Below are positions 60 to 34,938 of a stretch of 39,153 nucleotides of DNA, one piece after another. The notes beneath the pieces are model-generated. The model did not search any database. It was not told the DNA's origin and worked only from the letters and a program-made list of their open reading frames with translations. The stretch is from positions 1 through 39,153 of the forward strand of contig CANSPQ010000011.1 of the NCBI GenBank assembly GCA_947648915.1. Reading direction: 5' to 3'. Within the stretch, counting starts at the first letter, position 1. Every line of letters starts with the position of its first letter. This DNA is from an uncultured Caryophanales bacterium (GTDB taxonomy: Bacteria; Bacillota_I; Bacilli_A; RF39; UBA660). The position numbers were made by a program, and so were the translations under genes.

Positions 60-163
60 GCGGATTTTTAAGCGTTCTTAAATAAATATACAATACAGAG
101 ACAACGCTTAACATACAGAAGTTATCGTATCTCTTTTTTTATGATATGAAGTTTCCCTCATCT
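60..163 (-). ncRNA. Partial fourth copy of the putative type I antitoxin sRNA family
   Basis: Minus strand reads GTATACAGATGAGGGAAACTTCAT...GAGATACGATAACTTC...GTTAAGCGTTGTCTC, homologous to the sRNAs at 6772, 7132 and 29978. ATGAGG-GAAA-CTTCAT hairpin at 146-161. The 3' end and partner gene are uncertain because of the window edge. Confidence 0.55.
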
Positions 164-169
164 GTATAC

Positions 170-6771: not shown

Positions 6772-6893
6772 AGATGAAGGAAACTTCATAAAATAAAAAA
6801 GGAATATATTTGATTTTGGAGAGTCAAATGCATTCCTCATAGGGTTTGGCATCTAACGAATCACTGATGTGATAAGCAGATGCCTTTTGTTTA
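6772..6893 (+). ncRNA. Putative type I antitoxin sRNA, copy 1
   Basis: Promoter immediately upstream; 5' hairpin ATGAAG-GAAA-CTTCAT (6774-6789); second hairpin GGAATATATTTGA...TCAAATGCATTCC; terminator GGCATCT...AGATGCC-TTTT (6848-6888). Near-identical to copy 2. Confidence 0.75.
6848..6888. terminator. Apparently bidirectional terminator shared by sRNA copy 1 (+) and toxin mRNA 1 (-)
   Basis: GGCATCTaacgaATCACtgaTGTGATaagcAGATGCCTTTT. The minus strand reads through the same inverted repeat directly after the toxin stop codon; the minus-strand T-run is weak. Confidence 0.65.
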
Positions 6894-6968
6894 TTTAAAC
6901 AATAAAATGAATATTGTTAAAAATAACAGGGTGATTATAAAGTACAAACATTTTTCATTTTGTTTCAT
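6891..6968 (-). CDS. 25-aa hydrophobic peptide, putative type I toxin, copy 1 (MKQNEKCLYFIITLLFLTIFILLFK)
   Basis: SD GAAAGG upstream of ATG on the minus strand; one TM segment; N-terminal 17 residues identical to copy 2; convergent with the sRNA. Confidence 0.72.
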   Translation of the reverse strand: MKQNEKCLYFIITLLFLTIFILLFK

Positions 6969-7131: not shown

Positions 7132-7256
7132 AGATGAAGGAAACTTCATAAAATAAAAAAGGAATATATTTGATTGTTGCAAGTCAAATGCATTTCCTTA
7201 TTTGGAACTGGCATCTAACGAATCACTGATGTGATAAGCAGATGCCTTTTATTATT
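7132..7256 (+). ncRNA. Putative type I antitoxin sRNA, copy 2
   Basis: Same hairpin order as copy 1; the first ~48 nt (GTATACAGATGAAGGAAACTTCATAAAATAAAAAAGGAATATATTTGATT) are identical; terminator GGCATCT (7210)...AGATGCCTTTT. Confidence 0.75.
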
Positions 7257-7341
7257 TAAAGAAAATAATTGCTAGTAAAGCAAATATTACTAGAAATAAT
7301 AGCGTAATTATGAAATACAAACATTTTTCATTTTGTTTCAT
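7252..7341 (-). CDS. 29-aa hydrophobic peptide, putative type I toxin, copy 2 (MKQNEKCLYFIITLLFLVIFALLAIIFFK)
   Basis: SD GAAAGG; one TM segment; paralogue of copy 1; stop codon abuts the shared terminator. Confidence 0.72.
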   Translation of the reverse strand: MKQNEKCLYFIITLLFLVIFALLAIIFFK

Positions 7342-12097: not shown

Positions 12098-12109
12098 AAA
12101 TGAATTTGT

Positions 12110-12300
12110 AAATCGTTGATAGAGAATAGTAATTTATTATTTATGTTCAGAAAGTTCATGGTTGATGCGAATGAACCATAAAGATAAATGAATCTACTCT
12201 TGAGAGAAATGTAAACATTTCCGGTGAAAGCCGTTAACTAAATTAAGTTATTCGTAGGATGGTACCGCATTATAATGCTCCTATATGAATAACTTTTTTT
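12110..12300 (+). promoter_or_regulatory. T-box leader, serine specifier
   Basis: T-box AGGATGGTACCGC; specifier loop GAA-TCT-ACTCTTGAG (UCU=Ser at 12193-12195); terminator AGTTATTCGTAGGA...TCCTATATGAATAACTTTTTTT; upstream of serS. Confidence 0.9.
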
Positions 12301-29660: not shown

Positions 29661-29918
29661 ATGGAGATTTTATTTGAAGTAATAGGAGAGTTGTTATCAG
29701 GAGTTGTAGAATATATTGAAGATAACAAAAAAATCAGTAAATGGATTCGTTATCCGATTTTGATTTTCTCTATGTTGTTTGTTATAGTTGTTTTACTCGG
29801 GTTATTATTGCTTGGAATTCTAATTCTTCAAAAAGACATTATTGCAGGAGTTTTTATCATTGGAATCGGATTATTGCTTACTTTTTTGCTTATTTATCAG
29901 ATTTATAAAAAATCCTAG
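29661..29918 (+). CDS. Small two-TM membrane protein
   Basis: 85 aa, two hydrophobic segments, SD GGTGAT. Confidence 0.6.
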   Translation: MEILFEVIGELLSGVVEYIEDNKKISKWIRYPILIFSMLFVIVVLLGLLLLGILILQKDIIAGVFIIGIGLLLTFLLIYQIYKKS

Positions 29919-29942
29919 AAGCCCAAAGATTTAAAATAAAAC

Positions 29943-29971
29943 TTGCACTTCTCATCTATTTATGCTATTAT
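29943..29971 (+). promoter_or_regulatory. Promoter of sRNA copy 3
   Basis: TTGCAC-17 bp-TATTAT. Confidence 0.7.
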
Positions 29972-29977
29972 GTATAT

Positions 29978-30107
29978 AGATGAGAGAAATCTCATACAAT
30001 AAAAGAGATACATCTTACTTTGTTCTGTTAGGTGTGTCTCTACTAATTATGGCTATTGCTAGCCAAATGTGTTGATAACACCATCTAGTTGCTAGGTGTT
30101 ATTTTTT
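29978..30107 (+). ncRNA. Putative type I antitoxin sRNA, copy 3 (diverged)
   Basis: 5' hairpin ATGAGA-GAAA-TCTCAT (29980-29995) covaries with copies 1/2; hairpin GAGATACATCTT...TTAGGTGTGTCTC; terminator AACACC...GGTGTTATTTTTT. Confidence 0.7.
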
Positions 30108-30161
30108 GTCCTGATTTTTTAGTAAGTATATTATAATTAACACAAGCGCTAATTCTAACAT
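30099..30161 (-). CDS. 20-aa hydrophobic peptide, putative type I toxin, copy 3 (MLELALVLIIIYLLKNQDKK)
   Basis: Strong SD GGAAAGG 5 nt upstream of ATG; hydrophobic core with charged C-terminus; convergent with sRNA copy 3; stop at the edge of the shared terminator. Confidence 0.6.
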   Translation of the reverse strand: MLELALVLIIIYLLKNQDKK

Positions 30162-30247
30162 AATTGCCTTTCCACATCATAAGACATCACCCCACTTTCA
30201 TGAGGACACCTAACAATAAAATATATCTCTACTAAAAAAATACGATA

Positions 30248-30283
30248 GAAAAATCTATTTTCCTTTTTGAAATGGATTTTTTT
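30248..30283 (+). terminator. Intrinsic terminator candidate
   Basis: AAAAATCTATTTtcctttttgAAATGGATTTTTTT. Confidence 0.5.
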
Positions 30284-34679: not shown

Positions 34680-34729
34680 ATATTTGACAAATAGAAAATT
34701 TATGAATATAATGATATCAAAGCTTAGAA

Positions 34730-34938
34730 CAAGAGGAGTATAATTGTGCTACTTCAAGAGAGTCTGTGATTGGTGAAAACAGATAGTGAAACAATTAGAA
34801 GGTAGCTTGGGAGCTGAATATTTGAACCTTTAGTAGAGTATTCCGTAGATATGCGTTAAATAAATGAGATAACTTATGTTATAAATTAAGGTGGTACCAC
34901 GCGAGATCACGTCCTTAGCTTTGGATGTGATTTTTTTG
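34730..34938 (+). promoter_or_regulatory. T-box leader
   Basis: Core AGGTGGTACCACGCGAGATCACGTCC; terminator-like ATCACGTCC...GGATGTGATTTTTTT; stem I apical-like AAGAGAGTCTGTGATTGGTGAAAACAG. Specifier not assignable by eye. Confidence 0.88.

Follow-up and report, generated by a model that had tools for sequence, protein, structure and literature searches.

A probable type I toxin-antitoxin module belonging to a large chromosomal family in uncultured gut bacteria

The locus at 29943-30247 of the window (the whole stretch of 39,153 nucleotides of DNA that was analysed) is, as we conclude with good confidence from sequence comparisons, a type I toxin-antitoxin module and belongs to a large family of such modules on the chromosome; with no match to a known RNA or protein family, this looks like a new and undescribed family. 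Direct reading of the sequence gives an sRNA promoter, an sRNA of about 130 nt and a convergent open reading frame (ORF) for a hydrophobic peptide of 20 amino acids (aa), preceded by a Shine-Dalgarno (SD) sequence (Table 1). The initial annotation had described this locus as the third, diverged copy of an arrangement of promoter, GNRA hairpin, second hairpin, terminator, micro-ORF and SD, and all of these elements were found where it had placed them; its impression that the minus-strand promoter is weak was borne out as well (the candidate hexamers are given in Table 1).

In the mechanism that we propose, a strong promoter would drive the antitoxin sRNA, in which the GNRA hairpin and an A-rich linker would form a constant 5' domain, and hairpin 2 and the terminator a 3' domain specific to each locus; a convergent promoter would give the mRNA for a single-helix membrane peptide of 20-35 aa. 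This mRNA would fold back from its 5' leader onto its own 3' end, limiting translation, and the sRNA, the hairpin 2 of which would carry the leader sequence and the 3' end of which would overlap the 3' end of the mRNA, would pair with both mRNA ends and so keep the toxin message silent or degraded; once the sRNA was exhausted, the peptide would enter the membrane. In this model, toxicity, silencing, action at the membrane and the order of the pairing events are inferred.

Table 1. Features of the copy 3 locus and positions of the other copies in the window
Feature	Position	Strand	Basis or remark
sRNA promoter of copy 3, TTGCAC-17-TATTAT, extended -10	29943..29971	+	TTGCAC 29943-29948, TATTAT 29966-29971; sequence
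5' GNRA hairpin, ATGAGA-GAAA-TCTCAT (6 bp stem, GAAA loop)	29980..29995	+	Fold
A-rich linker, ACAATAAAA	29996..30004	+	Family alignment (one base varies, the rest invariant)
sRNA hairpin 2, locus-specific in sequence	30004..30041	+	Fold; inverted-copy test; cognate pairing test
Small extra hairpin, GGCTA-TTGC-TAGCC	30051..30064	+	Fold of copy 3 alone; generality beyond copy 3 not implied
sRNA intrinsic terminator	30074..30107	+	Stem 30074-30103 plus T-run; fold and terminator scan
Toxin-like micro-ORF, 20 aa, MLELALVLIIIYLLKNQDKK	30099..30161	-	Sequence; peptide-group profile match in own genome (the copy 3 peptide is itself a member of that profile)
Shine-Dalgarno, GGAAAGG	30167..30173	-	5 nt before ATG; sequence
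Toxin mRNA leader (predicted)	30162..30236	-	Transcription start assumed from promoter-like sequence
Weak toxin -10	30237..30247	-	TATCGT 30242-30247, or TATTTT 30237-30242 where relatives carry TATAAT (L132/L138 leaders compared)
Copy 1; toxin ORF complement(6891..6968), MKQNEKCLYFIITLLFLTIFILLFK	6773..6968	sRNA +, ORF -	
Copy 2; toxin ORF complement(7252..7341), MKQNEKCLYFIITLLFLVIFALLAIIFFK	7133..7341	sRNA +, ORF -	
Fourth sRNA copy, truncated at the contig edge, with the toxin region outside the assembly	92..168	-	Covariance model E 1.2e-8; sequence

The sRNA of copy 3 folds with a z-score of -5.4 relative to shuffled sequences (-5.6 for its first 67 nt). The two promoters converge, a terminator T-run is present on the sRNA side only, the toxin ORF ends within the sRNA terminator and, by geometry, the 3' end of the sRNA overlaps that of the toxin mRNA. 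An inverted copy of hairpin 2 recurs in the toxin leader, the 5' part of which (30203-30233) is similar to hairpin 2 and is predicted to pair both with hairpin 2 and with the mRNA 3' end. The sRNA promoter is missing from the listing of a generic consensus promoter scan because it scores below the scan's 9-of-12 threshold. We also considered an ORF on the same strand inside the sRNA (MREISYNKRDTSYFVLLGVSLLIMAIASQMC, then a stop, in copy 3) and rejected it, because 60/146 copies stop within 8 codons and no SD lies upstream.

The structure of the sRNA is preserved across the family by covariation. Over 71 sequences, the two helices contain 95.6% standard pairs (compared with 86.8% in shuffled data and 23-43% when pairing partners are slid), and double changes occupy 130 cells compared with 36 after shuffling. 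The 5' GNRA hairpin is paired in 99.5% of the cells of these 71 sequences, with three pairs changed on both sides, and all eight consensus pairs of hairpin 2 have changed on both sides in the family alignment; the search pattern behind most of the sequences allowed, without requiring, pairing in the variable part of hairpin 1 and left hairpin 2 unconstrained. The linker (CATA-N-AATAAAA) varies at one base and is otherwise invariant. Over 160 aligned copies the sRNA promoter retains TTG (96/96/88%) and an extended -10, with TATG upstream of TANNAT, and the toxin promoter reads TATAAT in 46% of the family, compared with 20% after shuffling. Among the Rfam 15 covariance models there was no match for the sRNA; T-box leaders alone reached meaningful scores, and those at 12107-12285 and 34716-34919 account for every Rfam match in the window. 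As a separate observation, a palindrome with a T-run commonly lies over the -35 of class-2 sRNA promoters (for example, ACGACTTGTCAAAAAGTCGTTTTT), and its arms vary together (own genome C42, C39, C29, C35 and C19:9417/9762, that is, L158, L159, L161 and L164-L167; also L202-L208); it looks like a terminator inside the promoter, or an operator.

The initial annotation had raised the possibility that the sRNA motif is frequent without any convergent hydrophobic micro-ORF, and we found the opposite. Among copies selected by the RNA motif alone, 108 of 144 in class 1 (2.4% in shuffled sequence) and 21 of 28 in class 2 (3.6% shuffled) have a convergent ORF that is intact, encodes a hydrophobic peptide and has an SD, with the ORF start mostly about 165-235 nt downstream. 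The 43 remaining copies include 26 in which toxin-like sequence lies where the ORF would be expected, often lacking the start codon or interrupted by an internal stop. When the search starts from the peptide, the own genome yields 26 profile matches at E below 0.02, 23 of them opposite an sRNA and the other three at contig ends (that is, 23/23 of the assessable matches face an sRNA). In five relatives, 47 of 51 peptide matches face a model-found sRNA across a gap of 27-68 nt; three of the four exceptions proved on inspection to have a diverged or damaged sRNA (for a total of 50/51), and the last resembles a false hit. A small hydrophobic peptide encoded opposite the RNA gene, as in type I systems generally, is therefore what is seen both in the motif-chosen copies and at the peptide matches of the own genome and the five relatives. 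Of the 29 sRNAs in the own genome, three face a broken peptide gene, four have had it lost or replaced, and one is cut by a contig end. The peptide is never found without the RNA and the RNA is sometimes found without the peptide, which is the pattern predicted for a toxin-antitoxin pair. At four loci of the own genome (L144, L145, L150 and L162, on C43, C1, C9:35725 and C13), two of them at contig ends, the toxin and terminator have given way to a hairpin built around AACCCCATTTCTTGGACATAAGAAATGGGGTT or similar sequences, which is possibly the end or footprint of an insertion sequence.

That the peptide is missing at some copies would also be explained if the sRNAs formed a family that regulated other genes in trans and the peptide only hitchhiked, in which case the constant 5' domain, with its invariant linker, could seed a shared target. 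We consider this very improbable, because hairpin 2 is locus-specific and matches the adjoining leader, and because every assessable peptide gene comes with an sRNA.

The micro-ORFs, as judged from their substitution patterns, evolve under purifying selection: for closely related pairs the in-frame pN/pS is 0.33, compared with 0.77 and 1.54 in the shifted frames, and third codon positions vary most. Peptides across the family are 20-38 aa long; that of copy 3 groups with MEYLVILVVLILLLDRNSKNKD and MELVVAFVTIVFYTILVLRNKD, and those of copies 1 and 2 belong to a group with a charged N-terminus. A scan of 25 aligned peptides against Pfam gave no significant match, nor did the NCBIfam and PADLOC profiles; none of the solved structures matched the peptides, and PHROGs returned one hit, weak and to a single peptide only. 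Antisense-controlled membrane micropeptides that are not toxic, but modulate membrane enzymes or stress responses at a level tuned by the sRNA, would share several of these properties: the peptides are small and hydrophobic and show purifying selection, single-helix regulatory peptides exist, and toxicity is something that we infer. This alternative appears unlikely, because as many as 29 diverged copies in one genome and the frequent loss of start codons fit toxins better than useful regulators, and because the sRNA is kept beside broken peptides, yet no peptide without an sRNA was seen.

The family is widespread in the order and nearly absent from the rest of the class. A search at the DNA level revealed further copies in the own genome, and a covariance model trained on 71 copies finds 29 clear sRNA copies there at E below 2e-5, after which scores fall from 43 to 26 bits; this amounts to 29 recognisable copies in 1.3 Mb, and in the window the pattern for the 5' element has four matches, compared with 0.00 expected. 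The sRNA model matches 209/288 genomes and 80/102 genera of the order, with as many as 16 copies counted per genome; the genomes are draft metagenome-assembled genomes (MAGs), and these copy counts are to be read as 'at least'. In a class-wide sample, 31/395 genomes match, 30 of them from the same family and one (G454) from another family of the class, where a single copy has RNA and peptide together. A second 5' variant, in which GTCAAGGAAACTTGCAT replaces GATGAAGGAAACTTCAT, occurs in 69/146 order genomes, and the reversed control pattern had 0 matches among the genomes listed; the first variant was found in public MAGs titled uncultured Bacilli or Mollicutes, Ca. Coprosoma, Faecisoma and Ventrenecus. 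A third type of 5' hairpin (GCAAG...CTTGC or TTTGC) precedes the linker, with the same toxin group, at L232 (G172:C10) and L233 (G126:C4). An origin from phages, plasmids or viral contigs was rejected, there being no match in such collections.

At the corresponding site in a sister species (G114, in which the ClpC fragment is 98% identical), we found an orthologue of copy 3 together with a second, tandem copy; in three other congeners a clear copy is absent at the site, although the upstream neighbourhood differs there too. Hairpin 1 of the orthologue shows a compensatory change (G-C in copy 3, A-U in G114), and the codon changes in its ORF (MLELAFVLIIIYLLKIQDKK) are mostly synonymous; GGGCGTG stands where copy 3 has the SD. 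Together with the degenerate -10 of copy 3, the lost SD in the sister species suggests that expression of the toxin half of this module may be declining. In the same sister-species region (L198, G114:C41), the small membrane-protein gene upstream of copy 3 (window 29661-29919) carries a one-base insertion, and its frame is apparently broken.

The initial annotation had argued that conserved architecture with diverged sequence reflects selection on the system rather than a recent duplication artefact. This interpretation is supported because five independent tests hold, namely the covariation of the stems, the in-frame constraint on the ORF, the obligate pairing of peptide and RNA in the own genome and five others, the presence across the order, and the orthologue of copy 3 at the same site. 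Alternatively, the family could be a scattered repeat or a very small mobile element with a conserved end that carries a promoter and with an incidental ORF, as its many copies, tandem arrays, inverted similarity between ends and variable copy number at one site might suggest; purifying selection in frame, covarying RNA stems and an ORF distance that is fixed in most copies make this exceedingly improbable.

The two RNAs of a module are complementary beyond what is seen between modules. An inverted copy of hairpin 2 in the toxin leader gives a similarity of 33.4 for cognate and 23.5 for non-cognate combinations, and direct similarity between leader and sRNA is barely raised (23.5 compared with 22.3), so that direct repeats like those of par are unsupported as a feature of the family. 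Copy 3 is low on the inverted test (24), yet its leader is predicted to form a duplex of -36.3 kcal/mol with its own hairpin 2, and one of -20.7 kcal/mol with the mRNA tail. With duplex energies for 92 loci centred for row and column effects, cognate combinations are enriched for the leader with hairpin 2, with the sRNA terminator and with the mRNA 3' tail (permutation p below 0.0005 for each), part of this enrichment being common descent because related loci share both ends. Over the same 92 loci, cognate enrichment is absent for the ribosome-binding site (RBS) region with the sRNA (p about 0.8), and sRNA pairing at the RBS or start codon was rejected on that account. The cognate sRNA-leader pair is the best in its row for 4/92 loci, and specificity could be loose, given that cognate pairing is so rarely the best of all pairs. 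The SD is paired at a fraction of 0.74, compared with 0.49 in ordinary genes of the window, an excess that is partly compositional because leaders shuffled upstream give 0.62; in copy 3 the fold of the leader is no more stable than expected by chance (z 0.42), with the SD paired at only 0.39.

Knowledge of type I modules is thought to be patchy, since annotation misses short peptides and antisense RNAs. The present loci would add, in a single family of uncultured gut bacteria with reduced genomes, a previously unlisted family that is found in most genomes and has peptides skipped by standard annotation. With a 5' domain that stays constant and a specificity domain that varies, the sRNAs provide hundreds of paralogous pairs as a natural data set for the evolution of sRNA-target specificity, and why so small a genome retains so many pairs is now testable. 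The constant 5' domain, kept across interchangeable hairpin types, might be a shared handle for one host factor (an RNase or an RNA-binding protein), a suggestion that we regard as speculative and rather doubtful; if it were true, a single factor would set some 29 antitoxins at once, and the chromosomal toxin set would be one coordinated stress or phage-response circuit.

These lineages go unmentioned in the main text of a large human-microbiome survey of structured RNAs, the supplementary tables of which may include the family (PMC8040213). Several characterized type I systems share parts of the arrangement. Three modules of Clostridioides difficile (CD2517.1-RCd8, CD2907.1-RCd9 and CD0956.2-RCd10; PMC6563280) likewise have convergent, overlapping genes and small hydrophobic peptides without homology to other type I toxins; compared by description only, their toxins are 34-59 aa long with a lysine-rich C-terminus and several lie in prophages, whereas the peptides here are 20-38 aa and match nothing in phage or viral collections. 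In Bacillus subtilis yonT/SR6 (PMC5848175), also from a Gram-positive organism, the antitoxin RNA overlaps the 3' end of the toxin mRNA; that toxin has 58 aa and is prophage-borne, and the peptides here have no Pfam link to any named toxin family. The aapA/IsoA systems of Helicobacter pylori (PMC6733600) also comprise several paralogous modules per chromosome, and their toxin mRNA is inactive through a long-distance 5'-3' interaction that is here predicted only. By analogy, the leader would fold back onto the tail and the sRNA would compete for both ends as in aapA/IsoA; the constant 5' domain of the sRNA is a difference, and the likeness described here is one of architecture.

The Fst/Ldr systems, with the par locus of pAD1 (RNA I and RNA II; PMC7472228), have convergent promoters, a single-helix membrane peptide and RNAs that overlap at an intrinsic terminator, and this shared geometry raises the question of direct membership. 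That is hardly credible, because both the peptide family match and the direct repeats fail: the 25 aligned peptides have no Fst/Ldr Pfam match, the PXXXG motif of the Fst/Ldr peptides is not a feature of this family, and the sequence shared by leader and sRNA is an inverted copy, unlike the direct repeats DRa and DRb at the toxin translation start of par, with no cognate pairing seen here at the RBS. RNA II is short, whereas the sRNA here has about 130 nt, and the constant GNRA hairpin with its A-rich linker sets the present family apart from Fst/Ldr par. In architecture, the locus nevertheless resembles Fst/par most among known systems.
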